DNA of 18,723 nucleotides, taken from contig CAMVBT010000011.1 of assembly GCA_947165805.1 (NCBI GenBank), positions 1 through 18,723 of the forward strand, given 5' to 3'. The DNA comes from an uncultured Clostridia bacterium. GTDB taxonomy: Bacteria > Bacillota > Clostridia > Oscillospirales > Ruminococcaceae. Below the pieces are notes generated by a model. It was not told the DNA's origin. It ran no database searches and saw only the letters and a program-made list of their open reading frames with translations. Both the position numbers and the translations under genes were made by a program. Shown piece by piece: positions 542 through 17,484 of the stretch (positions are counted from its first letter, which is position 1; each line of letters opens with the position of its first letter).

Positions 542-937
542 ATGACCAAACGCAAACGCTCACACTGTATCTGCCTCCGTCTTACCGATGATGAATACTT
601 ACTCTGGGAGAGAAAACGCAAAGAAAGCGGATTGTCCCAGACAGACTTCATTGTCAGGGCGATAAAGGACAGCACTATTAAAATATATCGCATTGATGAT
701 GCCCTCAGACCCATGATAAAGGAGCTTCGCTATATCGGGAGCAACATCAATCAGCTCGCATACTTCTCAAACATCGGACAGGAGTACCGTGTCAGAAATG
801 AGATAGAAAGTATTCGCAAGCGACACAATTTGTCAGCAGAATGCGCCGTTTTTTACGGAGGTATTATAATGGCAACTATGCAGATGAGTGGTCGTACCCA
901 AAGCGGAGCATATGGAAAAGGAAATATACTCCCTTGA
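542..937 (+). CDS. MobC-like relaxosome accessory protein, C-terminus apparently altered
   Basis: The ATG at 542 follows a good Shine-Dalgarno (AAAGGAG, 529-535). Residues 8-42 look like a ribbon-helix-helix DNA-binding fold (ICLRLTDDEY, then SQTDFIVRAI). Residues 60-73 carry the KELRYIGSNINQLA helix typical of MobC proteins, which bind oriT and assist the relaxase. About 105 residues look genuine. After residue 105 the sequence reads through a strong RBS and ATG (ACGGAGG at 854-860, ATG at 869) that would normally start the next gene, probably the relaxase. It then runs into integrase DNA in the wrong frame and stops at 935-937. The last 20 or so residues are therefore probably junction sequence. 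The family call comes from recognising the motif, without a database search. Confidence 0.65.
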   Translation: MTKRKRSHCICLRLTDDEYLLWERKRKESGLSQTDFIVRAIKDSTIKIYRIDDALRPMIKELRYIGSNINQLAYFSNIGQEYRVRNEIESIRKRHNLSAECAVFYGGIIMATMQMSGRTQSGAYGKGNILP

Positions 938-1487
938 TGAAGTAAAAAAGTTGTTTGAAAATCTCGGCAGCGAGCCGCTGAAATACCGTGTTTATCTTAT
1001 GCTGGCGATATACAGCGGCTACAGACGAAGTGAAATGCTGGGACTTGAATGGAAGGACATAGACTTCAAAAACGAGGTTATCCATGTAAGAAGAACATCA
1101 CAATACACGGCTGAAAAGGGGATATACACCGACACTACCAAGACAAGAAAGTCGAAGCGAATATCAAAGTTTCCACCGTCAATAATGGAGTTGTTGAAAG
1201 ACCTCAAGCTTGAACAGCAAAAGGAAGCGGAGAAGCTCGGCAGCAAGTGGATAGACTATGACCGTCTTTTCACAAAGTGGGACGGCACTCCTATGAACCC
1301 ACAGACACCCTATGAATGGCTGAAGGAATACTGTGAAAAGATAGATATTCCATTTAAAAATATCCATTCGCTCCGTCATATCAACAATATGAAAACATCT
1401 TTATTAAAAATCCGCTTAAAATCACATATCTCCCCACAAAAACAGCACCATGTAACAAAACAAACTTGGTGTTGTTTATTTATATAA
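888..1487 (+). pseudogene. Tyrosine recombinase (integrase) catalytic-domain fragment
   Basis: The frame opens with a GTG at 888, directly after a TGA, and codes for 199 residues. Residues 28-61 hold box I of phage-type integrases (YSGYRRSEMLGLEWKDIDF, catalytic Arg about 46). TKTRKSKR at 85-91 is the usual Lys hairpin region, and HSLRH (160-164) is the start of box II. Everything beyond is missing: there is no His/Trp box and no Tyr nucleophile, and the tail from residue 165 is unrelated. The N-terminal arm-binding and core-binding domains are also absent, since this frame begins inside the element's mobC/relaxase junction. The fragment cannot be active. It is a relic of an integrative element whose attachment site lies just downstream (1497-1529). 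Confidence 0.8.
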
Positions 1488-2491: not shown

Positions 2492-4303
2492 TCAACCGCT
2501 GCCTTTAATGGACAGACAAAGCATCGTTATATCGTCCGCCTGAGGAGCTCCGCCGGCAAATTGTGCAACAGAGTCGGAGACCTTACGGCATACTGTCCCG
2601 CATATATCTTCTTCATTGGGCGATATACCGTTCAGAGCCGCGATAGGACGCTTTTCTCCGTAGAAACCGCTGTTCGTGTCTGTTGCTTCGGTCACACCGT
2701 CGGTATAAAGGTAAAGAATATCTCCCTTACGCAGCTTTAAGCTCTGTGTCTGATATTCCGCGTCGTCCATCAGTCCGAGGATCAGGTCGGTTTTCATTTT
2801 AAGAAATTCCGCTTTTCCGTCACGAATAAGCACAGGGGGATTATGTCCCGCGTTTACAAAGCGCAGCTCGCCCGTTAAGATATCAAGTACGCCCACCCAC
2901 GCCGTGATGAACATTCCCGCCTCGTTGCCGTCGCATATCCGCACGTTCGCACGGGAAACACTTTCCCCGAGATCGTCGGCGCTCACTATGCTGTCACGCA
3001 AAGTTGCTTTTCCATTCATCATGAACATTGCGGCGGGTATCCCTTTGCCGGAAACATCGGCTATCATAAACACGAGCGTATGTTCATCCGTCATATAGAA
3101 GTCATAGAAGTCGCCGCCCACCTCTTTGGCGGTATTCATCGACGAGAAAAGACCGAAATACCGATTGTTCTTCAACCCTTCCGTTAGCACCGGAAGCGCG
3201 GAATACTGTATCTCCCACGCATAACGCAATTCTTCGTCGATCCTTGCGGTTTCCCGTGCTATATGCTTTTTAATGGAAGCGACCGTCTTGTTGATACCCT
3301 CGGAGATAGTTTCAAATTCGCTCGAAGACCGTACAGACACTTTCTCGTCAAGCTCCCCACCGGTAATGGAAGCGAGCGTTCCCGCGATCTCTTTCACGGG
3401 GCGAGTTACCTTCCGCTTCATCAGCATAGAAACACTGATAAACAATGTTACAAACAGTATCATTCCGAGAACTGAGGATAGTATCAGGTTTATCCTGATA
3501 TTCTCCATGACCCTTTTCTGTGAGAGCACTGCGACTATTTTGAAGTTGCTTATGGTGTCGAACACACGGTAGTAGGTGACGCCGTTAACAGATACCTCCC
3601 TGATCTCTCTGGTCTCGCCGTGTATCTCACGGCCTTCAAACATCTTGTCGATATCCTGGCTGCTGTCATCATACGGCTTGCTTACTACAGTGTTGTTCTC
3701 GTCGATTATGAACAGCATACCGTTCTGATTTACATGACGGCTACTGATAAATTCTGTCACAGCCTCGGATATGATGCTGTCAAGGCTATCCTGACTGAAC
3801 CCGCCCATCACATACATACCGTTGTCCAGTTCTGTTCCGATATACTGAATTATCTCGGACGGATCGCCGGCACTCTGAGGTATAGGAGAAAGGAGTTCCT
3901 TCTTTTCACGAAGTTCCTTGAAAAATCCTGAGGTCGCATCATTGCTGTCAAGATCAACGCCTATCATGTTTTTATTGGTAGATTCCAGCACAATGCCGTT
4001 TTCATCTATAATACTGGCCTCGTCGCAGTCGAGGTAGTATGGTATCAAGTCAAGGTCGGTGTAGCCGGGCTGAAGGTATGACTTTACAAAATACATACCT
4101 AAAAGCTGGGTCTCACTTACAAAGTGGGTCAGCGATCTTATCTCGTCTTCTATCGAGACCTTCAGGAGCCGCTCGGTATCATTCATAGTGACCTTGTACT
4201 GTATTACAACAGACAGCGCCGTTGTGAGCAGAAACATCAATACCATTATCAGCAACAGCCATTTGTTCAATTGTGACGCTATTGTTGGCAGTTTACGCTT
4301 CAT
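2492..4303 (-). CDS. Membrane sensor PP2C/SpoIIE-type serine phosphatase (Cache-HAMP-PP2C)
   Basis: This 603-residue protein is built like RsbU/SpoIIE-class phosphatases that dephosphorylate STAS proteins, with an added extracellular sensor. A membrane helix (about 15-36) is followed by an extracellular region (38-268) that resembles a double Cache fold (SIIDENGIVLESTNK, then MLFIIDENNTVVSKP), a second helix (272-294), a HAMP linker (295-347) and a phosphatase domain (about 365-600). Metal-site motifs are intact: EVGGDFYD (394-401), ADVSGKG (415-421), NAGHNPP (484-490), DGVTEA (535-540) and QADDIT (588-593). The ATG at 4303 has AAGGAG 6 nt upstream and overlaps the end of the RsbW-like gene by 11 nt. 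The likely substrate is the phosphorylated STAS protein two genes upstream. The sensed ligand is unknown; Cache domains usually bind small molecules. Confidence 0.9.
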   Translation of the reverse strand: MKRKLPTIASQLNKWLLLIMVLMFLLTTALSVVIQYKVTMNDTERLLKVSIEDEIRSLTHFVSETQLLGMYFVKSYLQPGYTDLDLIPYYLDCDEASIIDENGIVLESTNKNMIGVDLDSNDATSGFFKELREKKELLSPIPQSAGDPSEIIQYIGTELDNGMYVMGGFSQDSLDSIISEAVTEFISSRHVNQNGMLFIIDENNTVVSKPYDDSSQDIDKMFEGREIHGETREIREVSVNGVTYYRVFDTISNFKIVAVLSQKRVMENIRINLILSSVLGMILFVTLFISVSMLMKRKVTRPVKEIAGTLASITGGELDEKVSVRSSSEFETISEGINKTVASIKKHIARETARIDEELRYAWEIQYSALPVLTEGLKNNRYFGLFSSMNTAKEVGGDFYDFYMTDEHTLVFMIADVSGKGIPAAMFMMNGKATLRDSIVSADDLGESVSRANVRICDGNEAGMFITAWVGVLDILTGELRFVNAGHNPPVLIRDGKAEFLKMKTDLILGLMDDAEYQTQSLKLRKGDILYLYTDGVTEATDTNSGFYGEKRPIAALNGISPNEEDICGTVCRKVSDSVAQFAGGAPQADDITMLCLSIKGSG

Positions 4304-5022: not shown

Positions 5023-8000
5023 TTATTCCGCATCACTGTCAAAAAATCCCAGTGATATAAGCGATTCTATTGCACTTTCCAGATAACGCTCGTCGGTCAG
5101 CGGCCAGCGGTAGCCAAGACGATAAAGAACGTTCTTGGTGAATGTGTGATCCTCGGGAACGTATGAGCGCACCGTCTCCGCATCGGCGGAAAGGTAGCTG
5201 ATAAGCCCGGAAACAAGCATATTCTTCTTTTCGTCCCGCATAGCTTCCGACATTCGCTTTGAGAACTCTTCCTCATTTACGGCGTCAACGGGTATTCCCG
5301 CATTATTCATCGCTGCGACGACATCACCCATTTCGATCCAATGACCGTTGACAGCGTGGAATACCGTAAATTTATCGGGAGTTCCGCTTAGCAGACGAAC
5401 TGCCTTAGCAACAAGATCTATCGGTGAGAATTCTACCGGTCTTGCCATTTCACTGACAGGGTAAGCGCCTATCGCCGCATAGCCTTTCAGATTGCGCATA
5501 AATCCGCTTGTCACGGAGTTTGCCTGAAATTCTCCGTCGCTGTCTCTGCTCATAAGATTGCCGACGCGTATCACCTTTGCCTTGAGCCTGCCTGCCGCTA
5601 TTTCACGCAGTATAAGCTCCTCGGCTTTGTATTTTGAATTGATATACTGATTTGAGAGATCCTGCCCGAAGTACAGCATATTTTCACGCATCACGGCGGT
5701 GTCGGGAAGTGCGTGGTCAACATTCTCTCCCGCAACAGATACCGTGGATATCTGTATCAGTCTGGCGCCCGTCTTTTCGCAGAGAGCAACGAGGTTCCCG
5801 ACGCCTTTAACATTCACGCGTTCAAGTATATCGTCCTTTGCGAAATGCTTCACACAGGCGGCGCAGTTGATGACAGTACCGAAGGAAATGCCGTCCTGCG
5901 CAAGAACAAGCTCACGGTCAGTGATATCTCCGTCCATGGCTTTAAGTCTTCCACTGTCGAATTCCGCGGCGCAGTTCGTGTCGAAATAATAAACCAGCAT
6001 GGATTCGAGACGCTTGCGTGCCGTCTCTGAAGAGCCCTTGCGGATAAGGCAGGTTATCTTGCCTTTTTCGTTTTCAAGAAGCTCATGCAGCATATGTATG
6101 CCGAGAAAGCCCGTAGCACCGGTGAGCAGTATGTCGCCGAGAGGCACTGATGTCACCTCACGGATATGTTTCATCGTGTTGTATTCAAGAGCGGGCTTTA
6201 TCTCGGGTATCTCCTTGTCCTCGACCGCCGGCTCGCATATCGTATCAGAACGCTTACTTTCGCCGTTTTTGCCGAGTATATTTCTTTCAAGAGCCTCGAC
6301 TGTCGGGAACGCGAAAATATCTTTATACGCTATCGGGATATTTTCTACCATAGCCTGCATAGCGACCTTGGACGCGAGTATTGACGTTCCGCCTATCTCG
6401 AAGAAGTCCTCGTCAGCTGCCACGCTGTCAAGTCCGAGAGCTTTTGCGAACATTGCGGCTATCTTTTGCTGGAGCTCAGAAGAAGCTGCCTTTTCGCTGC
6501 GCTTTTTCTGTGTGAACTGCGGCTCAGGCAATGCTTTTCTGTTGATCTTGCCGTTTACGGTAAGCGGAAACTCGGTCAGATGCACGAACACACCGGGTAT
6601 CATATATACCGTAAGAGTTTCCTTCATGTGCGCTGTGAGCTTTGTCTCGTCAACAGGCTGCTCAGACGCATAGTAGCCGCACAGGAAGCTTCCGTCACCC
6701 GTGCCTTTCACGATGACTGCACTGCGCTTTATGCCGGGGAAGCTGTTCATCACATTTTCTATACCGTCCAGCTCAATGCGCAGTCCCCTGATCTTTACCT
6801 GATTATCGTTGCGTCCGCAGTGTACTATCTCGCCTCTGCCGTTGAAATACGCAACATCACCACTGCGATACGCAGGAACGTCTTTGCCGTTTATTTTCAC
6901 GGTGATGAACTTTTCACGGGTCATTTCGTCAAGGTTGACATAGCCCTTCCCGACCTGCGCGCCGGCAATGACAAGCTCGCCTCTCGCATAGGGCGGGAGA
7001 AAGTTTCCGAAGCTGTCGCGGATAAGGAAGTATGTGTTGAGCGTAGGACCGCCGACAGTCACCTGTCCGCCGTCAAGCACGCCTATACTTACAGATACGC
7101 AGGTTTCCGTGGGACCGTAGCTGTTGAAGAGAGTTCCCGTAAATCCCGCTTTGCGTATCTTCGCATACAGAGCAGCAGGAAAGGGCTCCGCACCGACGAT
7201 AAGCGCTTTCAGTCTGCCGAGTGCGCCCGCCGCTTCGGGAACATCAAGTATCGACTGCAAATACGACGGCGTGCACTTCATCATGTCAACTCCGGTGTTC
7301 GTCACAGTCCGCATAAGCAGCAGCGGATTGTGTATCTCCTCATCGGTTGCAATCGAAACCGCCTTGCCGTGATAGAGCGGCATCATTTCTTCTATGACAG
7401 AAACGTCGAAGGTGATCGCCGCAAGTGCTAAGAATATTGTTGAATTATCAACATAGGCTTTCGCAAGAGTGTTCTTTTCGTTATACGCAAGCAGGTTCGC
7501 AAGGTTCGAGTGCTTTATTTCAACGCCTTTCGGATTTCCCGTGGAGCCGGAGGTGTATATGAGGTATGCCGCGCTTTCACGCTCGATCTTTACCGGCAGG
7601 TCAAACGAGCTGCCGTTTATCACATCTTTGCTGATGTCATCGGTAAAGAGTATGTCAAGCCCGTCAAACAGCGTATTTCTTTTGCCGTACAGCGTCTTTG
7701 CGGTGATAAGTCGTGTTATACCCGCGTCTTTGAGTATATAAAGGATCCGGTCATCGGGGTATTCGGGTTCAAGCGAAACGAACGTACCGCCGGAAAGCAT
7801 AATGCCTTCACGCACAGCGTAAATGTCTTCGTCACGCTCCATATACAGCGCGACCCTGTCATTCGTGCGAACGCCGCTTTCTATGAGTGCGTTGGCGATA
7901 CTCTTTGCCTTGCACCACAACTCGCGGTATGTGACTTTCACCTGTCCGCTTCGGGCTATGACAGCGATCTCGTCAGGAGATGCTTCCGCCGCCGTTGCGA

Positions 8001-11000
8001 AAAGTTCCGGCGCAGTCGGGAACACACCGTCCGTCGCTGTATCATTGAAGCCGTCAAGCATTTCACGCGCTTCTTCCGACAGTATAGACACCTCGGCGAG
8101 CCACTTTCCCCGTACCATTCCGATAAGTGCGCACTCCACCGCGGACAGGAATCCGCGGATATATCCCTCGCTGTACCTGTCGCCTCTGTACTCCATAGAG
8201 AAACGTATCTTTCCGCCGTCAATGAATACGTTGAGGTTCATCGGAGCCTTTGCCTCGGAAAGCCTTAGCGGCTCGATCTTCGCGGGCTTGCCGCAAAGCG
8301 TGTCGAACGCGAATTCGTCTCCCTGCCACGCGAACATTACATCTGCGTTGACGTTAAGGCTCCGGCATATCTCAGCGAAGGAGTAAATATCGCTGCCCTG
8401 GGAATCCACAAGCTGATCGCTCACCTCGCGGGCAAGCTGAGCCGTGGTCTTCCCCGCCTCTATGCTGACGACTATCGGCAGAGTCTTGACGAGCATCGCC
8501 ACCGTACCGGCAAGACGCGAGTCGTTCCTTCCGCTGTATATACCCGCGAACACAGCCGACTCCGTGCCGAGGTACTTGTTCAGCGTCAATCCGAACGCTG
8601 CCGAGAACAGTCCGTTCATCGACGCTTTGTTATTTTCGCACCATGCCTTTGTCTCAGCAGCGTCGATGCCGGAAGCGTACATTTCATACATACAGGTCAC
8701 GGCACTATGTTCGCCTGTGATATCTCCTGTGGGGAGCGACTGGGTCTCAGCGCCGTCAACAAGTTTTTTGTAGTAGTTTTTCGCTTTTCCGTAAGCGTCC
8801 GACATACGAAGCTTTTCCTCGTTCAGAACGACCTCATAGCCGCTGTAACTCTCGGTTTCGAGCTGTATGCCCTCATACGCCGCCGATACATCGTTTAAGA
8901 ATATACCGATCGAACTGCCGTCCGAGATGATATGATGCATCTCGATAAACAGCCATGTCTTCCCGCCGTGCAGTATCTCAACACGGAAAAGTCTGCCACC
9001 GAGCAGTTTGAACGGCTTCACGAGCTTTTCCTTTTCTTCCTCTATCGACGATATTTCCCGTTCGGTTATCGAGCTTTCGTCGAATGAGAAGTCGCCGTCC
9101 ATACGGCGCATACGCACGTCACCGTCGTCATTTATGAACAGTCTCGTTTTCAGTATAGGGTGAGCGTTGACTGCCGCGACTATTGCGGTCTTCAGCTTCA
9201 CGGTGTCTATGTCGTCAGATATTTCAAGCAGCAGCGGGATATTGTAAAGAGTATCCGAGGGCTTTGCTATACACTCAACGTAGATACCCTCCTGTGTTTT
9301 GGTAAGACCGTAATCCGGCTGTATCCCGAACTTTTCGCTGCCTGATGCCGCGCCCGTCAGGAAGGTCTCAAGTTTGTCTATCGTGTTGTTCTCTTTAAGG
9401 TCGCGGGAGGTCACTGCCGTGTCAAATGCCTTTGCCAGCAGTACATTGAGCCTTATCGCGCCGATAGAGGATAGCCCCGCTTCGTATATGTTCGTGGTTA
9501 TGCCGAATCCGGTATGACCTACGACTTCCGCTATACAGTCAAATATCTTCTGCTGAACATCATTCTGCGGCGGTATGATCTCGATACTCTGTCTCTGCGG
9601 CTTGGGCAGAGCCTTTTTGTTTACCTTCTGGTTCTGGTTGAGCGGAATACTCTCTATTTGCATGGTAACAGCCGGTACCATATACGGCGGCTTACGGTCA
9701 AGGATAAACTCGTTCAATGCGGAAATATCCACGATATCATCGGCAACAACATAAGCTGCTATGAATTTCTCACCGCTTGCCTCGTCCTCAAACGCCTGCA
9801 CGGTAGCATCCCTGATCCCCGGAAACTCGCGGATAACGCTCTCCACCTCGGTAAGCTCGATACGGAAACCGCGCACTTTGACCTGACCGTCATTTCTGCC
9901 GATGAAATCTATCTCGCCGTTCGGCAGCAGACGTACGATATCTCCAGAACGATATGCGCGGGCATAGTCATCGCCGCTGTCAAAGGGATTGCGGATAAAC
10001 ACTTTTTCGGTGAGATCGGGGCGGTTCAGATATCCGCGCCCCACGCCGCGTCCCGCAATCAGCAGTTCGCCGGGAATAAGCGGCGGAAGCCGTCTTCCGT
10101 TCTCGTCAATCACATAGCACTTGTAGTTTTTCAGCGGTCTTCCGATCGGCACACGCTCATAGAGCCTTTCGACAATCTTTATCGTCGTCAGTATCGTACA
10201 CTCTGTGGGACCGTATAAATTGTAGAACGCAGGATCTCCCGATCTCGGCGGCAGAGGAACAAGCTTTTCGCCGCCCGTGGAGAGATATTTCAGGCTTTCG
10301 GCGTTGGTCATCGAGTAGAACTGTCTGCCGACCTGTGTCGTCATGAACGCGTGAGTTATACCCCACTCGTTTATGCGCGCTTCGAGAGCCAGCAGGTCAA
10401 GGCGTATCTCTTCCTCAATGATGTACACGCAGGCACCGGTGGTGAGCGCCGGGTACTGATCCATCATATCAGCGTCAAAGCCATAGCTTGCATAAGCCGC
10501 GACACGCGATGTCTCGTCGAGATGATAGAACTCCCTGTACCAAGCGCAGAAATTTGCAATATTGCGGTGCTCAAGCATAACTCCCTTCGGCGTTCCGGTC
10601 GAGCCGGAGGTGTAGAGCAGTATGAACAGATCGGACGGGTCGGGGTGATCTTTGATCCTGCCGCAGTCCGGAAGCGCGGGAATATCCTTTGTGAGCAGGA
10701 CTTCACCTTTGTACTCCGGCACCCGTGAAAGCAGTTCCTCGTCCGCGATGAGAAGCTTCGCGGACGCGTCAGACATCATAAAGGTTAAACGCTCGGTGGG
10801 GTAAGACGGGTCAAGGGGCTGATATGCCGCGCCCGATTTAAGCACACCGAGTGACGCTGTGGTCATATATGTGCAGCGCGGGATAAGCACGGAAACAACA
10901 TCTCCTTTGCCGATACCGAGAGAACGGATCTTACCGGCTATACGTTCGGAGATATCATCGACCTGCGTGTAGGTCAGAGTCTCGTCCTTGAAGATAACCG

Positions 11001-14000
11001 CTGTGCGGTCGGGGGTTTTCGCAGCCTGCGCTCTGAACATCGACACTATATCGGTCACGGGATAGTCAGCTTCTGTGGCGTTGAAAGTCTCCATTTCGGC
11101 AATATCACCGTCACTTACAAGACGTATATCTTTAAGCTTTCCGCCTTCGCAAAGCCCCGCGACTATGCGTGTATATACCTGCGCCATACGCTTTATCGTC
11201 TCTGCCGCGAATTTTTCGGCGGCGTACTCGAATTTCAGCATATAATCGCCGCTGTTCTGTTTGAGAACATGAAGCGTAAGAGATGCCATCAAATCATCCG
11301 ACTGATATATCTCCATAGGTATGTATCTTCCGTCCATTGTAACGCCGGAAAGCATCTCGCCCTGATATACAAAGAAACAATCGGGATGAATGCCGTATTC
11401 GCCGCAGAGGGAGGCTATATCCGCACTGTCATGTGTGACAAGATCGTGGAACTCCTTCTGGACATCACTCATAAAATCTGCGCAGCAGGCGTTCTCGTCA
11501 ATTTTTGCCAGCACGGGAAGATTGTGTACGAGCATACCTATCGTGTTTTGCAGGACCGGATCATGCCGTCCGTTCTCACCCGTGAAAAACACAACATTCT
11601 TCTGATTGCAGAAAAGTCTCAGCATATACGCGTAGGCACTCATGAACAGCGTGCTTTCGGTAAGATGCTTCTCGCTGAGAGCGGAAATGAGCTTGCCCGA
11701 AAGCTCGGTCTGCTGTGAATAAAGAGTGGTATCGTAAACACCAAGCTTGCCTTTGAAGTCCGCAAGCTCCGGGTAGTCGTCACTGTAAAGCTCTGTGTCA
11801 CCCTCTGCCTGATCGAGCATCTTTCTGTAAACTTCATCGTCCGCCTGCGATATTTCGGGGTGAACGGCTTCGTACTGTGCGAGGGTGAAATTGCTCATTT
11901 CCTCTGCGGCGGGAGCCTCACCGTTATATACGGACGCAATGTTGTTTATGATAAGGGACGCAGTCGTGCCGTCACACACGATATGGTGCATGACAAACAC
12001 AAGAAGCAGTCCCTCCGGCGTGCGGAATAAAGCGGCACGGGTGGGAAGCTCGCTTTCAAGGCCGAATGGAGTATTTATGCTCTGCGCGAGGGCATTCTTG
12101 TCCGTAAGATCGGTGTCACGCACCTCAACAATTATCTTTCTGTCCGGCGAAGGAACAAGTGAAGGCATACCGTCAGCGACCTTCGTCACGGCGCCGAGTA
12201 TCGGACAGCCGTTCAGAACACTCTCTGCCGCATCTTTAAGCCGTACTTCATCAGCACCCATATCGGACGGCATAAACAGCGCGAATACGTTGTTGTATGC
12301 AGTCTCCTTGCCGGAAGCCTGACAGTCGAGATATATGCTCATCTGTGCCTTGGTGAGCGGGTATGAATCGGCGGGAGTTCCCTTGAATGCGGAAAGTGCG
12401 GAGGTTTCACCAATGCTTTCGGCTATATTTTCGGGTGTCCTTCCGTCGAACACCGAGCTTGCGGATATTTCCACACCCCTGTTCCTCAGCGTTTTCTGGA
12501 GCATAAGCACCTTGATCGAATCGCCGCCAAGGGAGAAGAAGTCGTCTCTGATACCCACATCCGCAATGCCGAGGATCTCACCGAACGCCTCACATATATG
12601 TCTCTGTCGCTCATTCACCGGCGGGATATATTCTGCGCGGCGGCGGTCGATCTCAGGCTTCGGGAGCGCCCCGCGGTCGAGCTTGCCGTTTGCGTTCACC
12701 GGGAATTTTTCAAGCCGTGTGAAATATGCCGGGATCATATATTCGGGGAGCTTTTCCGAAAGCGCGGCTTTGATGATATCCTCCCCGATTTCACTTTCCG
12801 CGATGTAATACGCCGCAAGGAAAGTCTGTCCCGTGCTGTCGATAAAGTCCTTGACAACAGCGTCATTTATGCCGTCTGTCCTGCGTATCTCCGCCTCGAT
12901 CTCACCCGGCTCCACACGCTGACCGTTTATCTTTATCATCCAGTCCCTGCGGTTTATGTAGAGGATATTCCCGTCGGGAAGCCGCTTTCCGAGGTCGCCT
13001 GTATGTATGAGTATATCATGACCGTCCTTTTCCCTGAACGGGTTTGGCGTGAATGTTTGTGCGGTCTGTTCGGGGAGCCCGACATATCCGCGTCCCATAT
13101 CTCCCGAAACGCAGATCTCGCCCTCATCTCCGTCATTGCCGTCCTCGTCGAGAAGATATATATCCACACCGTCGGCAGGCTTTCCTATCGGAGTGTTGTC
13201 GTAGCCTCTGTTCACCTCAAAACATGCCGCTATTCCGGCTGTCTCGCTCATTCCGTACATATTCAGCAGACGGAAACCTTCCGGAGCGATCTGCGACATA
13301 CGCTCTCCTGCGGAAAGAACGATCCTGAGGCTGCTGCCCTTCTTCTCAAAATATCTCAGTACCTTAGGAGCGATATACGCGACCGTTACAGACTCTGAAT
13401 CAATGATCTCCGCAAGTCTGACCGGATCCGCCCTCACTTCATCGGGAAGAATATATGCTGTCATTCCGACACAGAGCGGAGTCAGCATATCTACGATATG
13501 AGCTACAAAGTAAAACGGTGCGTTGACTGCGCAGATATCGCTGTCAACCATAGCGGCAGCCTTTACGATGCGCTCTGTTGAGGATTTCAAAGAGCTGTGA
13601 CTGTGTATTATCCCCTTCGGCTTTCCGGTGGATCCCGATGTATACATTATAAGTGCGGTATTCCCGGGTCTGACCTCTGTGGGCTTCTCTATCGGAGCAA
13701 TATCCGCGCAGGCGGCAATAAACGTGTCGTCGATCACGGATTTCGCGCCGCAGTTGTTTTTAATAAACTCCGTCCTGTCCTCGGGGTAGTGATCGGAAAG
13801 CGGGACGTAAGCTCCGCCGGCATACAGAATACCGAAGATCGCTTCAACAAAGCCTATCCCGCGTGATGCCGTGATAAGTACAGACTCACCCGTCTTCAAG
13901 CCGTCTGAGAGGAGCTTTGCGGCAACGCGGCGGGCGTTTTCATCAAGCCCGGAATATGTTATCATTCTGCCGTCTGGCGCAGCGACCGCAGTCTTGGCTC

Positions 14001-14046
14001 CGTTTTTACTTACCTGTTCGTGGAATAATGTTATGATACTGTTCAT
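5023..14046 (-). CDS. Three-module NRPS with terminal reductase (A-T-C-A-T-C-A-T-R), predicted N-acyl dipeptide aldehyde synthetase
   Basis: Residues 1-465 are A1 (YTSGSTGKPKG 135-145), followed by T1 (GGDS, Ser510), C1 (about 560-985, HHIVCDG 687-693), A2 (about 1000-1482, YTSGSTGTPKG 1145-1155), T2 (GLSS, Ser1526 or 1527), C2 (about 1578-1990, HHIISDG 1704-1710), A3 (about 2010-2506, YTSGSTGNPKG 2164-2174), T3 (GGTS, Ser2555) and R (about 2630-3000, GATGFLG 2643-2649, Thr2768, Tyr2801 and Lys2805). No epimerase, methylase or thioesterase is present. Aligning by eye to GrsA gives pocket codes A1 VAVYLAMGIK, A2 DAMFSGLILK and A3 DVIKIGSVSK. A1 lacks Asp235, so it probably loads an acyl starter; A2 looks hydrophobic; Lys in A3 suggests Asp or Glu. 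The reductase should release an aldehyde. GGAGG lies 9 nt before the ATG, one base after the exporter stop. It resembles the gut ruminopeptin-type synthetases as I recall them; substrates are inferred. Confidence 0.93.
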   Translation of the reverse strand: MNSIITLFHEQVSKNGAKTAVAAPDGRMITYSGLDENARRVAAKLLSDGLKTGESVLITASRGIGFVEAIFGILYAGGAYVPLSDHYPEDRTEFIKNNCGAKSVIDDTFIAACADIAPIEKPTEVRPGNTALIMYTSGSTGKPKGIIHSHSSLKSSTERIVKAAAMVDSDICAVNAPFYFVAHIVDMLTPLCVGMTAYILPDEVRADPVRLAEIIDSESVTVAYIAPKVLRYFEKKGSSLRIVLSAGERMSQIAPEGFRLLNMYGMSETAGIAACFEVNRGYDNTPIGKPADGVDIYLLDEDGNDGDEGEICVSGDMGRGYVGLPEQTAQTFTPNPFREKDGHDILIHTGDLGKRLPDGNILYINRRDWMIKINGQRVEPGEIEAEIRRTDGINDAVVKDFIDSTGQTFLAAYYIAESEIGEDIIKAALSEKLPEYMIPAYFTRLEKFPVNANGKLDRGALPKPEIDRRRAEYIPPVNERQRHICEAFGEILGIADVGIRDDFFSLGGDSIKVLMLQKTLRNRGVEISASSVFDGRTPENIAESIGETSALSAFKGTPADSYPLTKAQMSIYLDCQASGKETAYNNVFALFMPSDMGADEVRLKDAAESVLNGCPILGAVTKVADGMPSLVPSPDRKIIVEVRDTDLTDKNALAQSINTPFGLESELPTRAALFRTPEGLLLVFVMHHIVCDGTTASLIINNIASVYNGEAPAAEEMSNFTLAQYEAVHPEISQADDEVYRKMLDQAEGDTELYSDDYPELADFKGKLGVYDTTLYSQQTELSGKLISALSEKHLTESTLFMSAYAYMLRLFCNQKNVVFFTGENGRHDPVLQNTIGMLVHNLPVLAKIDENACCADFMSDVQKEFHDLVTHDSADIASLCGEYGIHPDCFFVYQGEMLSGVTMDGRYIPMEIYQSDDLMASLTLHVLKQNSGDYMLKFEYAAEKFAAETIKRMAQVYTRIVAGLCEGGKLKDIRLVSDGDIAEMETFNATEADYPVTDIVSMFRAQAAKTPDRTAVIFKDETLTYTQVDDISERIAGKIRSLGIGKGDVVSVLIPRCTYMTTASLGVLKSGAAYQPLDPSYPTERLTFMMSDASAKLLIADEELLSRVPEYKGEVLLTKDIPALPDCGRIKDHPDPSDLFILLYTSGSTGTPKGVMLEHRNIANFCAWYREFYHLDETSRVAAYASYGFDADMMDQYPALTTGACVYIIEEEIRLDLLALEARINEWGITHAFMTTQVGRQFYSMTNAESLKYLSTGGEKLVPLPPRSGDPAFYNLYGPTECTILTTIKIVERLYERVPIGRPLKNYKCYVIDENGRRLPPLIPGELLIAGRGVGRGYLNRPDLTEKVFIRNPFDSGDDYARAYRSGDIVRLLPNGEIDFIGRNDGQVKVRGFRIELTEVESVIREFPGIRDATVQAFEDEASGEKFIAAYVVADDIVDISALNEFILDRKPPYMVPAVTMQIESIPLNQNQKVNKKALPKPQRQSIEIIPPQNDVQQKIFDCIAEVVGHTGFGITTNIYEAGLSSIGAIRLNVLLAKAFDTAVTSRDLKENNTIDKLETFLTGAASGSEKFGIQPDYGLTKTQEGIYVECIAKPSDTLYNIPLLLEISDDIDTVKLKTAIVAAVNAHPILKTRLFINDDGDVRMRRMDGDFSFDESSITEREISSIEEEKEKLVKPFKLLGGRLFRVEILHGGKTWLFIEMHHIISDGSSIGIFLNDVSAAYEGIQLETESYSGYEVVLNEEKLRMSDAYGKAKNYYKKLVDGAETQSLPTGDITGEHSAVTCMYEMYASGIDAAETKAWCENNKASMNGLFSAAFGLTLNKYLGTESAVFAGIYSGRNDSRLAGTVAMLVKTLPIVVSIEAGKTTAQLAREVSDQLVDSQGSDIYSFAEICRSLNVNADVMFAWQGDEFAFDTLCGKPAKIEPLRLSEAKAPMNLNVFIDGGKIRFSMEYRGDRYSEGYIRGFLSAVECALIGMVRGKWLAEVSILSEEAREMLDGFNDTATDGVFPTAPELFATAAEASPDEIAVIARSGQVKVTYRELWCKAKSIANALIESGVRTNDRVALYMERDEDIYAVREGIMLSGGTFVSLEPEYPDDRILYILKDAGITRLITAKTLYGKRNTLFDGLDILFTDDISKDVINGSSFDLPVKIERESAAYLIYTSGSTGNPKGVEIKHSNLANLLAYNEKNTLAKAYVDNSTIFLALAAITFDVSVIEEMMPLYHGKAVSIATDEEIHNPLLLMRTVTNTGVDMMKCTPSYLQSILDVPEAAGALGRLKALIVGAEPFPAALYAKIRKAGFTGTLFNSYGPTETCVSVSIGVLDGGQVTVGGPTLNTYFLIRDSFGNFLPPYARGELVIAGAQVGKGYVNLDEMTREKFITVKINGKDVPAYRSGDVAYFNGRGEIVHCGRNDNQVKIRGLRIELDGIENVMNSFPGIKRSAVIVKGTGDGSFLCGYYASEQPVDETKLTAHMKETLTVYMIPGVFVHLTEFPLTVNGKINRKALPEPQFTQKKRSEKAASSELQQKIAAMFAKALGLDSVAADEDFFEIGGTSILASKVAMQAMVENIPIAYKDIFAFPTVEALERNILGKNGESKRSDTICEPAVEDKEIPEIKPALEYNTMKHIREVTSVPLGDILLTGATGFLGIHMLHELLENEKGKITCLIRKGSSETARKRLESMLVYYFDTNCAAEFDSGRLKAMDGDITDRELVLAQDGISFGTVINCAACVKHFAKDDILERVNVKGVGNLVALCEKTGARLIQISTVSVAGENVDHALPDTAVMRENMLYFGQDLSNQYINSKYKAEELILREIAAGRLKAKVIRVGNLMSRDSDGEFQANSVTSGFMRNLKGYAAIGAYPVSEMARPVEFSPIDLVAKAVRLLSGTPDKFTVFHAVNGHWIEMGDVVAAMNNAGIPVDAVNEEEFSKRMSEAMRDEKKNMLVSGLISYLSADAETVRSYVPEDHTFTKNVLYRLGYRWPLTDERYLESAIESLISLGFFDSDAE

Positions 14047-14047
14047 T

Positions 14048-15811
14048 TCAGTGTTCCTCCGTTATTGCATTTCTTCCGACTTCGATGACTGTGTTATTGA
14101 GGTCTATAGAACGGACATAGTCAATGTCTGAAGCTAACCGCTTGACGATCCCGATACCGCTTATATCGAACAGATCGCCGTCAAACTCGTAAGATGTCGG
14201 GTCAAACGGGATCCCGTTGTCCCTTAAGCGCATTCTCAGCACTTCCGGTTCTATCGTAAGACAAAGATCTATCCACTCCGAGCTTTTCCCGCCGTAGGCT
14301 ATGATGTTTTCGGTCATTTCTTCCGCCGCGACCGTCATACGGTTAGCGAGAGTGCGCTCAACACCATTCTCCACAGCAAACTCAAGCATACGTCTGACAA
14401 GTGCCGGAACTTCCTCCTTGTCTGCCGGTATGGAAAGGTCGAGACATTCGCCGGTGTTCGTTCCCGGAAGTATGAACGCAGGGTTTTTTGGGTGCTTTAT
14501 AAAGCCGATGACAAGCGAAACTGCCGCAGTCAGCCCTTCGGATATCACAAACGACAGCCCCATTGCAATAAAACCGCTGCTGTCCGCAGAAAGCGCGAGA
14601 CTTATAGAGATATAAGCTGCGGGGAGTATTATCGTGCCATTTTCGAGAAGGGTTATAAGGCTTGCGAACCTTGTCTCGCCAATGCACTGATAATAGCTTG
14701 TAAGGAACTTGTTCCATACAAAAAACGGAAGACAGAGCATAAAGCAGCGCATTGCCGGAACGGTAAAGCCGAGAAGCGATCCTTCATTTACCCCGAACAG
14801 TCCCGCGACCTGACCGGCGAAGATCATAATGCCAATCAGAAGGCCTGCCGTGACTATCCCGGCTGTTTTAAGCGTTCTTAATGCAACCGACCGCAGCCCG
14901 TAATAGTCTTTTTCTCCGTAAAGCACACCCGCAAGATTTGGTATCACGCCGATGATACCGCCCGTTACCATAAGCATTATCATCATAACATTGGAGCACA
15001 CAGTGTATATCGTAAATCCTTCTTCCCCGAGAAGTCCCTTGATGATAAAGTTCAGTCCGAGTGACTGGACAAGCTTCATACCCATATATATGAGTGTCGG
15101 AGAGCCCGACTTTAACGCTGCCGCAGCCGATGACAGAGCAATGACAGGTCTCAGCGAGAGCATCTTTCCTTTCATCCTGATGTATTTTATGTACACCGCC
15201 ATTCCGCCAAGATAGCCTATCACAGTTGACAGTGCCGCACCCTTGATGCCGAGAGGCGTGTATGCAAGGAATATGTAGTCAAGGACAAGATTTATCACAT
15301 TGGAAACGATGATATAGGCGGACGACAGCCTGGGCTGACTTTCCACGCCCATGAAGTTCATCAGGTACAGCCCTATGCCGATAACGGGACACCCGAGCAT
15401 CCATATAAACATATAATCCCGCGCAAGCCCTTCAAATTCGCCTCCGCCCGAAAGCAGATGTGCCACAGGATCACACAGGAAGAAAGCCGCCAGCACAAAC
15501 AGTGCTCCGAAAATGACTGTAAGCCAGAACACAGTCGAGAATATATCAGATGCGCTCTTTTTGTCACGTTTTCCGAGAAACGTGGCTGCCGCTATTGCCG
15601 CGCCTGTTCCTAGACCGAACCCCACCACCTGCTCCAAAAGCGCTACCGGCATACATAGCATTATCGCCGACATAGCCTTTGTCCCGAGCAGGTTGCCCAC
15701 AAGCATCGTATCTACGATGTTGCCGAGCTGCATCGCCATATTCATCATTATCGACGGCAACATATACTTAGCGATCTTGCCGTCTATCAGCCTGTGATTA
15801 CGCTGTGCCAT
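14048..15811 (-). CDS. MATE-family exporter fused to a C-terminal RsbW-like HATPase domain
   Basis: Residues 1-440 form a MATE (multi-antimicrobial extrusion) transporter of about 12 membrane helices, with the family's start region (YMLPSIMMNMAMQLGNIVDTMLVG, about 16-39, split here by position) and a normal MATE length. Residues 455-587 are an added cytoplasmic GHKL domain: N box VAAEEMTENIIAYG (494-507, Glu498 and Asn502), G1 RDNGIPFDP (530-538) and G2 SGIGIV (551-556). The DxGxPFDPT(S/T)Y stretch closely matches the stand-alone RsbW-like protein of this operon, so the two domains are homologous. It is the first gene; the ATG at 15811 has AAGGGG 7 nt upstream. The likely job is export of the NRPS product. 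The HATPase could phosphorylate, or be bound by, the STAS protein and so gate transport. That control is inferred and would be unusual for a MATE protein. Confidence 0.9.
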   Translation of the reverse strand: MAQRNHRLIDGKIAKYMLPSIMMNMAMQLGNIVDTMLVGNLLGTKAMSAIMLCMPVALLEQVVGFGLGTGAAIAAATFLGKRDKKSASDIFSTVFWLTVIFGALFVLAAFFLCDPVAHLLSGGGEFEGLARDYMFIWMLGCPVIGIGLYLMNFMGVESQPRLSSAYIIVSNVINLVLDYIFLAYTPLGIKGAALSTVIGYLGGMAVYIKYIRMKGKMLSLRPVIALSSAAAALKSGSPTLIYMGMKLVQSLGLNFIIKGLLGEEGFTIYTVCSNVMMIMLMVTGGIIGVIPNLAGVLYGEKDYYGLRSVALRTLKTAGIVTAGLLIGIMIFAGQVAGLFGVNEGSLLGFTVPAMRCFMLCLPFFVWNKFLTSYYQCIGETRFASLITLLENGTIILPAAYISISLALSADSSGFIAMGLSFVISEGLTAAVSLVIGFIKHPKNPAFILPGTNTGECLDLSIPADKEEVPALVRRMLEFAVENGVERTLANRMTVAAEEMTENIIAYGGKSSEWIDLCLTIEPEVLRMRLRDNGIPFDPTSYEFDGDLFDISGIGIVKRLASDIDYVRSIDLNNTVIEVGRNAITEEH

Positions 15812-16800: not shown

Positions 16801-16908
16801 ATCAAGCCTGTGAAAAGACAAGGTTTCGGATTTGCAGGGCTTCGGCGTTATGCACAGGTCATTCAAAAAACAGGCAAATTCGGGGGTATGAAAAAAATGC
16901 AGGAAAAA

Positions 16909-16952
16909 GGGCAGTCGCCTTTTCGGCGCTCTGCCCGTCCACTTCGGCGGGC
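16909..16952 (+). repeat. Overlapping inverted repeats in the leader of the ribbon-helix-helix gene
   Basis: GGGCAG (16909-16914) pairs with CTGCCC (16931-16936) and encloses CGCC-TTTTC-GGCG (16916-16928). A competing stem uses GCCCG (16933-16937) with CGGGC (16948-16952). The two stems exclude each other. They lie 50-90 nt before the start codon and could be an oriT-type structure or a leader control element. Confidence 0.4.
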
Positions 16953-17001
16953 AAAGCCCACCGTTGAGCCAGTTGTAAAATTCAGAAAAAGGAGCCAAAA
17001 T

Positions 17002-17484
17002 ATGAAAAATAAGAAAAGTTGGAGGTCAAATCCCGATAATCCGAAAGAAAATGGCTTAATAAAGCCAGATTCCGAGGGGTCAGACAAGCGAAAATTCGCA
17101 CTTTACATTGACGAGGACACGCTTGCGGAGGTCGGAGAAAAGTATGCCGAGAGCGGCTGCAGTTCCCGCTCGGAGTTCATCGTAGAAGCGACAAAATTCT
17201 ATCTCGGCTACATCGCAGCCAAGAGCAGTACGAAATATCTGCTGCCGGTTTTGAATAGCATTATCCGTGATCAGATGCAGGTATCCGAGCAGCGAACCAA
17301 CAGAAATCTGTTCAAGATCGCGGTGGAGCTGGGCAAGCTGTCACACATAGTTGCGGCGATGAATGATGTTGACGATGACACGGTTCATGACCTGCACGCA
17401 ATGATCGTGGACGAGGTGCGCAGGATAAATGGGATAATAAGTTACGAGCAGGCTGATCGGTATCAGCACGAAGATTGGCAGTGA
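17002..17484 (+). CDS. Ribbon-helix-helix (CopG-like) protein of a conjugative element
   Basis: I chose the ATG at 17002 because AAAAAGGAG lies about 7 nt upstream; the frame is open back to 16810, but that part runs through leader hairpins and has no RBS. The protein is 160 residues. A basic, Asn-rich N-terminus (1-30) is followed by an RHH fold at about 31-70 (KFALYIDEDTLAEVGEKY, then SRSEFIVEATKFYL). A helical C-terminal part (about 80-145) could mediate oligomerisation. Such proteins often precede primase, replication or mobilization genes in Firmicutes conjugative transposons and either repress their operon or bind oriT. The next gene starts within about 10-65 nt (see there). Its function is inferred from the fold and context. 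Confidence 0.75.
   Translation: MKNKKSWRSNPDNPKENGLIKPDSEGSDKRKFALYIDEDTLAEVGEKYAESGCSSRSEFIVEATKFYLGYIAAKSSTKYLLPVLNSIIRDQMQVSEQRTNRNLFKIAVELGKLSHIVAAMNDVDDDTVHDLHAMIVDEVRRINGIISYEQADRYQHEDWQ

Follow-up and report, generated by a model that had tools for sequence, protein, structure and literature searches.

The 18,723-nucleotide stretch analysed here (the window; contig CAMVBT010000011.1 of the uncultured Clostridia bacterium GCA_947165805.1, Ruminococcaceae) carries a gene in which a MATE exporter is fused to an RsbW/SpoIIAB-type HATPase domain. We propose, with a probability of about 0.52, that a sensory phosphatase-kinase-STAS partner switch directly controls this natural-product exporter through docking of the unphosphorylated STAS protein on the fused domain. 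The exporter gene comes first in an operon-like row on one strand, followed by genes for a nonribosomal peptide synthetase (NRPS), a STAS protein, a free RsbW, a phosphatase and a phosphopantetheinyl transferase (PPTase), all of which are located in Table 1. The row is tightly packed: the exporter stop codon is followed after a 1-base gap by the NRPS start, the STAS and free RsbW genes overlap by 4 bases and the RsbW and phosphatase genes by 11, and 1 base lies between phosphatase and PPTase. All parts of a partner-switching module (PP2C phosphatase, STAS protein with a conserved Ser, RsbW-type HATPase) are thereby found together in one operon.

The fusion is real. As the initial annotation had it, a full-length MATE transporter continues in frame into the HATPase; both MatE and PF13581 exceed their Pfam cut-offs in the 587-residue product (43.4 bits versus 27.4 for PF13581 on the C-terminus), and the MATE fold of the transport part agrees with its assignment to this family of the MOP superfamily. 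A frame or assembly artefact is ruled out by the presence of the fusion on many independent contigs. When a single HATPase domain was compared with PDB sequences by phmmer only a chance match was obtained, so we used a profile of 36 exporter-type domains (A3), which matches the SpoIIAB structures 1tid, 1th8, 1til and 1l0o (E about 1e-3) and also RsbW structures (E 0.013). Whole-model structure comparison gave only matches dominated by the transport domains, and no HisKA or PAS match was found in the exporter protein at E 0.01. The homologue search returned 883 proteins at E <= 1e-3 among 7,996 candidates scored, with both domains in 116 of 120 among the matches listed. The architecture is already visible in annotation, one source naming such proteins 'Na+-driven multidrug efflux pump/anti-sigma regulatory factor'.

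What the fused domain has kept and lost is informative. Among 93 distinct exporter domains, 81 keep N502 of the N box and D531 of the G1 box (class 1, which is defined by these two residues), while the other 12 lack one or both; E497, E498, G533 and F536 are likewise invariant across class 1. The window's domain has the N-box Glu and Asn and the G1 Asp of RsbW/SpoIIAB-type proteins. All three of its boxes had been annotated as intact, which stands for N and G1 but not for G2: the first G2 Gly column holds Gly in 0/81 exporter domains as against 29/29 free RsbW, and the window's exporter has instead a shifted GIG (G552-I-G554) two residues later, whose G554 is Gly in 6/81 only. The ATP lid has a median of 12 residues in exporter domains versus 19 in free RsbW. 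We take the ATP-contacting Arg of SpoIIAB to lie in this lid. A lid Arg is found in 13/81 exporter domains versus 27/29 free RsbW; the window's exporter domain has neither the G2 GxG in place nor an Arg-bearing lid, and the lid of the free RsbW in the same operon likewise has no Arg. In SpoIIAB the Arg contacts the gamma-phosphate of ATP (PMC10120452; here and below, sources with a PMC number are used in excerpt). The altered lid and G2 box argue that the exporter domain is mainly a receiver: it looks impaired as a kinase, and from its sequence we read it as a probable output domain, on which STAS would dock, and not as a kinase of the ordinary sort. The DxGxPFDPT stretch that the domain had been said to share with the operon's RsbW-like protein does match, but it is mostly a family motif, and we rejected it as special evidence for common STAS binding.

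The strongest evidence for a link between the exporter and the switch comes from gene neighbourhoods, where co-occurrence of the fusion with STAS and PP2C genes had been set beforehand as a check. From 80 loci, 37 picked for their long contigs, and hence not a random set, were put to a whole-genome search covering 36 genomes. After dropping five of the 43 fetched regions (the window, two contigs of its own genome, G318:C156 and G307:C18), 38 neighbourhoods of intact fusions remained, extending up to 20 kb on each side. STAS genes are present in 31 of them and PP2C genes in 22, so that the check came out in favour of the co-occurrence; NRPS genes are found in 34, and PPTase and free RsbW genes in 21 each; 2 have an RsbW-PP2C fusion (RsbW is part of the phosphatase in G305 and G329), 9 a second MATE-HATPase, 2 an ABC-HATPase and 1 an SDF-HATPase. 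Some stretches stop at a contig end, which leaves the absences partly open. Counted by distance, STAS lies <=20 kb from 46/56 fused exporters in the 36 genomes versus 0/19 plain MATEs there (Fisher p 7e-11), the plain control being the 19 non-fused matches at E <= 1e-50 and not all MATEs. The proportion is 32/39 for intact fusions (p 7e-10 against plain MATEs) and 14/17 for divergent ones, 'intact' meaning in this count the first 39 rows by E-value and not the N502/D531 class, so that some of the 17 divergent rows, such as G307:C18 and G324:C17, keep the N-box Asn.

A control was made to set the effect of the NRPS apart: STAS was found in 1/17 NRPS loci with no fused MATE versus 31/38 fusion neighbourhoods (Fisher p 1e-7). 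For this control 196 genomes of one order were searched, of which 24 matched, and 20 loci from 18 genomes were annotated, leaving out G441 (fused MATE, with STAS), G405 (fused MATE on a short contig, no STAS) and G413 (a 575-residue MATE with no detectable HATPase). Identity is lower, at about 27-32%, for most of the 17 NRPSs, and the contigs of G523, G374, G402 and G381 are short or one-sided, so absence is less certain here than around fused MATEs. In genomes with exactly two STAS genes, one adjoins the fused MATE in 14/17; inspection by eye of G298, G313, G315, G316, G317 and G323 placed the other, SpoIIAA-like, beside a strong HATPase_c_2 and a SigB/F/G-type sigma gene. The predicted phosphorylation site Ser54 is present in 61/61 distinct STAS sequences of the fetched loci.

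If the switch had an ordinary transcriptional output, a sigma factor might serve as its target. The SigB/F/G model (TIGR02980) has two matches of at least 170 bits in 34/37 genomes, one in G304 and none in G302 and G307; no third strong match occurs in any of the 37, the next scores being about 150 bits or less. Pfam also revealed no sigma gene among the proteins of the window operon or ten unassigned cluster open reading frames (ORFs), which include two GH3 enzymes, an HD-domain protein, a glyoxalase and two fusions of an amino-acid substrate-binding protein with a permease. No extra SigB-type target is thus evident, which is an argument and not proof because ECF sigmas were not searched for. 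G307 (L042, Lachnospiraceae AD3010), with 13 STAS and 7 SpoIIE-phosphatase matches, has no strong SigB/F/G sigma match, so that partner switching appears abundant in this genome while a sigma output of that type is not evident.

Related HATPase domains also sit on other transporters, namely at the C-terminus of amino-acid-type ABC ATPases and at the N-terminus of SDF dicarboxylate/amino-acid symporters. The ABC fusions of Table 1 lie in fused-exporter clusters, and many full-length relatives are found outside such clusters; the SDF fusions align almost end to end with more than 100 relatives and mostly do not have STAS as a neighbour. Since whole-model comparison is dominated by the transport domains, we assign a HATPase-like fold to the ABC C-terminal domain from its secondary-structure elements, which follow the exporter domain's order (E-H-H-E-E-H-E-E) bar one extra 4-residue helix, and from profile matches, with Pfam (16.4 bits for L015, below the cut-off) and with a home-made profile. 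The N-box Asn and G1 Asp are both absent from 10/12 divergent MATE, 14/14 ABC and 12/12 SDF domains, most members keeping the Glu pair and G533; a domain kept despite the loss of Asn and Asp is as expected of binding domains. It is tempting, if tentative, to see RsbW-type domains as a portable transporter-control module in gut Clostridia and their relatives, one lineage of which would have spread over MATE, ABC and SDF transporters, largely lost catalysis and become a socket, so that a single phosphorylation state of STAS could set both precursor uptake and product export with no sigma factor. The domain tree sets RsbW domains, whether free or fused to a phosphatase, apart from the MATE, ABC and SDF domains with a support of 0.894; this tree samples 28/81 exporter domains from a short alignment, is midpoint rooted and may suffer from long-branch attraction. 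In the tree of transport parts, sampling 44/87 intact fusions, fused MATEs group (support 0.73) apart from 13/14 plain ones, which suits one original fusion; the fourteenth plain MATE (G307) bears a faint trace of a HATPase domain. Six further loci (L170, L171, L172, L173, L179 and L182) have an ABC-HATPase beside an ORF of 750-804 residues and no STAS in the fetched 15-20 kb, and four of them also have one or two SDF genes.

The mechanism that we favour would run as follows. A signal at the HAMP-bearing phosphatase, in which a Cache match (PF02743) falls below the cut-off, would cause the phosphate to be removed from Ser54 of STAS, and the free RsbW would put it back. In its unphosphorylated form STAS would dock on the cytoplasmic RsbW-type domain of the MATE exporter and alter the state of the transporter, thereby permitting or stopping export of the NRPS product without new transcription. 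Because ATP-site residues persist in the exporter domain, docking may depend on nucleotide or may reset itself slowly. An output on transport would agree with the ABC and SDF fusions and with the fact that no spare SigB-type sigma is evident. Also on its side are G307, with STAS and PP2C beside a MATE-HATPase and an ABC-HATPase but neither a local free RsbW nor a strong SigB/F/G sigma, the similar extent to which the HATPase and transport parts vary between clusters (mean distances of 0.81 and 0.78), and the precedent of MlaB, a STAS protein that acts on MlaF (PMC7367683).

Several results weigh against this mechanism. Distances between clusters for STAS do not follow those for the exporter HATPase given the transport part (distance-matrix test, r = -0.18, p 0.96, 32 clusters), while they do correlate with those for free RsbW (r = 0.40, p 0.022, 22 clusters) and PP2C (r = 0.20, p 0.04, 23 clusters). 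The test is weak at 22-32 clusters, and its result counts against docking but leaves it possible. Moreover, STAS lies <=20 kb from only 2/12 ABC-HATPase and 1/14 SDF-HATPase full-length matches, and is not found at that distance for 7/39 intact and 3/17 divergent MATE fusions. NRPS genes, near 34/38 fused exporters, are also a nearly constant neighbour, and in G326:C237 and G334 a STAS/RsbW/PP2C set stands with an NRPS in a fetched stretch that contains no fused MATE. The idea, already put forward in the initial annotation, that partner switching is directed at transport therefore fares unevenly: STAS linkage, the ABC and SDF fusions and the absence of a spare sigma fit it, but the domain looks kinase-impaired and STAS distances follow free RsbW.

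The same observations have to be confronted with other explanations. Information could flow in the opposite direction, the exporter being a transceptor in which substrate load or MATE flux alters HATPase activity and the domain phosphorylates STAS, thus reporting export to the switch. The N box and G1 Asp retained in class 1 suit such a role, as does G307, where STAS and PP2C stand beside a MATE-HATPase and an ABC-HATPase with no free RsbW within 20 kb, and a precedent exists in CbrA, a transporter fused to a histidine kinase in which transport is independent of the kinase (PMC7096432). However, the altered G2 box, the short lid and the scarcity of its Arg, the absence of the catalytic Asn and Asp from every ABC and SDF domain examined and from most of the divergent MATE domains, and the occurrence of a free or PP2C-fused RsbW in many neighbourhoods make us consider this unlikely. 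The correlation of STAS with free RsbW rather than with the exporter domain is what would be seen if the domain paired with free RsbW in a HATPase heterodimer that held the kinase, and perhaps also the NRPS complex, to the membrane, with STAS acting on RsbW only. Yet exporter-domain and RsbW distances show no positive correlation given the transport part (r = -0.24, p 0.97), G307 has no local free RsbW and in G305 and G329 RsbW belongs to the phosphatase, so that we find this pairing rather improbable.

Regulation of MetNI through its regulatory domain illustrates that a pump may carry such a domain for its own purposes. The fused HATPase could by analogy be only an ATP/ADP-sensing regulatory domain, with the partner switch controlling transcription or the synthetase through another target, an option favoured by the near constancy of the NRPS and by the ECF or other sigma factors that lie outside our sigma search. 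It is at odds with the single STAS among 17 NRPS loci with no fused MATE, with the divergent fusions that adjoin STAS and have no NRPS in the fetched stretch (L185, L186, L187 and G318:C156), with the loss of ATP-site residues from most divergent fusions and with the lack of a third strong SigB/F/G sigma, and we give it little credence. Docking of STAS on the exporter is the reading that we retain.

The search of GTDB contigs yielded 175 relatives, of which 80 loci were kept; by their titles these come mainly from Lachnospiraceae, Oscillospiraceae, Ruminococcus and other Clostridia, and distant members may be missed because the window and L015 supplied the seeds of the home-made hidden Markov models. 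In the window's own order the fused exporter gene is sporadic, as only 2/295 genomes match at 1e-60, its own genome counted. At one end of the window (542-1487) lie a protein weakly similar to MobA/MbpA mobilisation proteins (below the cut-off) and a tyrosine-recombinase-like fragment, and at the opposite end (16810-17484) a small gene with no NCBIfam match; the cluster may have moved on a mobile element, as the MobA/MbpA-like and recombinase-like frames suggest and as fits its sporadic occurrence. The same genome encodes two further fused proteins. On C104 (L002, L166) a divergent MATE-HATPase stands beside a PP2C gene and GH3-family frames, the GH3 match extending across two open frames. Similar arrangements with a GH3-family adenylating enzyme and a PP2C gene occur in L133, L113 and L186, and on sequence grounds they are a second kind of cluster with partner-switch genes. 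On C172 (L005, L167) the tail of a MATE-HATPase lies at the contig edge, its HATPase part 53% identical, directly followed by another NRPS gene.

Table 1. Location of the fused exporter, its operon and related transporter fusions (positions refer to the window unless preceded by a locus name).
Feature	Position	Strand	Evidence or remark
MATE exporter with C-terminal RsbW/SpoIIAB-type HATPase, 587 residues	14048..15811	minus	
MATE transport domain, residues 1-440	14492..15811	minus	
HATPase_c_2 domain, residues 455-579	14075..14449	minus	PF13581 4.1e-11
N box, E497 E498 ... N502	14306..14323	minus	in all 81 class 1 exporter domains
G1 box DNGIPFDP, residues 531-538	14198..14221	minus	
Altered G2 box ISGIGIV, residues 550-556	14144..14164	minus	
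NRPS, 3007 residues, 3 modules (3 A, 2 C and 3 T domains: adenylation, condensation, thiolation) and terminal NAD-binding reductase	5023..14046	minus	Pfam
STAS protein, 96 residues	4712..5002	minus	PF01740 3.1e-14, TIGR00377
Ser54, predicted phosphorylation site of the STAS protein	codon 4841-4843	minus	
Free RsbW-like HATPase, 140 residues	4293..4715	minus	PF13581 9.7e-8
Phosphatase, 603 residues: HAMP, SpoIIE/PP2C	2492..4303	minus	PF07228 1.7e-48, PF00672 5.1e-6
Sfp-type PPTase, 217 residues	1837..2490	minus	PF01648, PF22624
ABC ATPases with C-terminal degenerate HATPase-like domain	L015:7101-8189, L042:5647-6735, L070:16430-17578, L078:6545-7669		in fused-exporter clusters
SDF symporters with N-terminal HATPase-like domain	L015:8229-9881, L174:9715-11364, L176:9675-11351		

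Partner switching is a classical bacterial signalling device whose best-known outputs are sigma factors. The window system shares with RsbU/P-RsbV-RsbW and SpoIIE-SpoIIAA-SpoIIAB of Bacillus the association of a PP2C phosphatase, a STAS protein with a phospho-acceptor Ser and an RsbW-type HATPase, but in Bacillus the output is SigB or SigF, while here no sigma gene is found among the operon proteins or the ten cluster ORFs and a second RsbW-type domain is fused to the exporter. ClbM is presumably the MATE exporter of the colibactin cluster. It resembles our protein as a MATE exporter belonging to an NRPS-type product cluster, although its 431-residue chain (PDB 4z3n) leaves no room for a HATPase domain. 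SypA/SypE of Vibrio fischeri likewise combines partner-switch parts with a non-sigma output downstream of STAS, the Vibrio effector being described as not known in the excerpt of PMC10120452, whereas the window operon holds a candidate effector with a docking-type domain. In Escherichia coli the STAS-only protein MlaB acts directly on a transporter, binding the ABC ATPase MlaF itself and not an RsbW-type domain (PMC7367683). CbrA/CrbS join an SLC5 transporter and a GHKL ATPase domain in one protein, but this is a two-component histidine kinase (PMC7096432), in contrast to the RsbW-type serine-kinase-like domain on a MATE exporter with STAS and PP2C beside it; transporter-kinase fusions also appear to be the subject of a 2026 preprint (PMC13022988). 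The consulted text of a review on STAS-only proteins (PMC8256260) mentions no exporter output. The claim that no system of this kind had been described holds for the open-access literature searched, in which, judging by titles and abstract openings and with subscription papers not covered, we found neither a MATE-HATPase or STAS-controlled exporter nor a functional account of MATE-HATPase proteins. What appears new is the combination of a MATE exporter bearing an RsbW-type domain with linked STAS and PP2C genes.

Terminal reductase domains of NRPSs carry out reductive release, giving a peptide aldehyde. The product of the window NRPS is accordingly predicted to be such an aldehyde or a cyclised form of it; according to a review (PMC10794557, citing Guo et al. 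2017), the peptide aldehydes produced by NRPSs in gut Lachnospiraceae are cathepsin inhibitors. If our reading is true, partner switching that acts physically on a membrane transporter would add a new branch to this kind of signalling and could explain STAS/PP2C sets that have no evident sigma target. It would also give a handle on when gut Clostridia release their NRPS peptide products.
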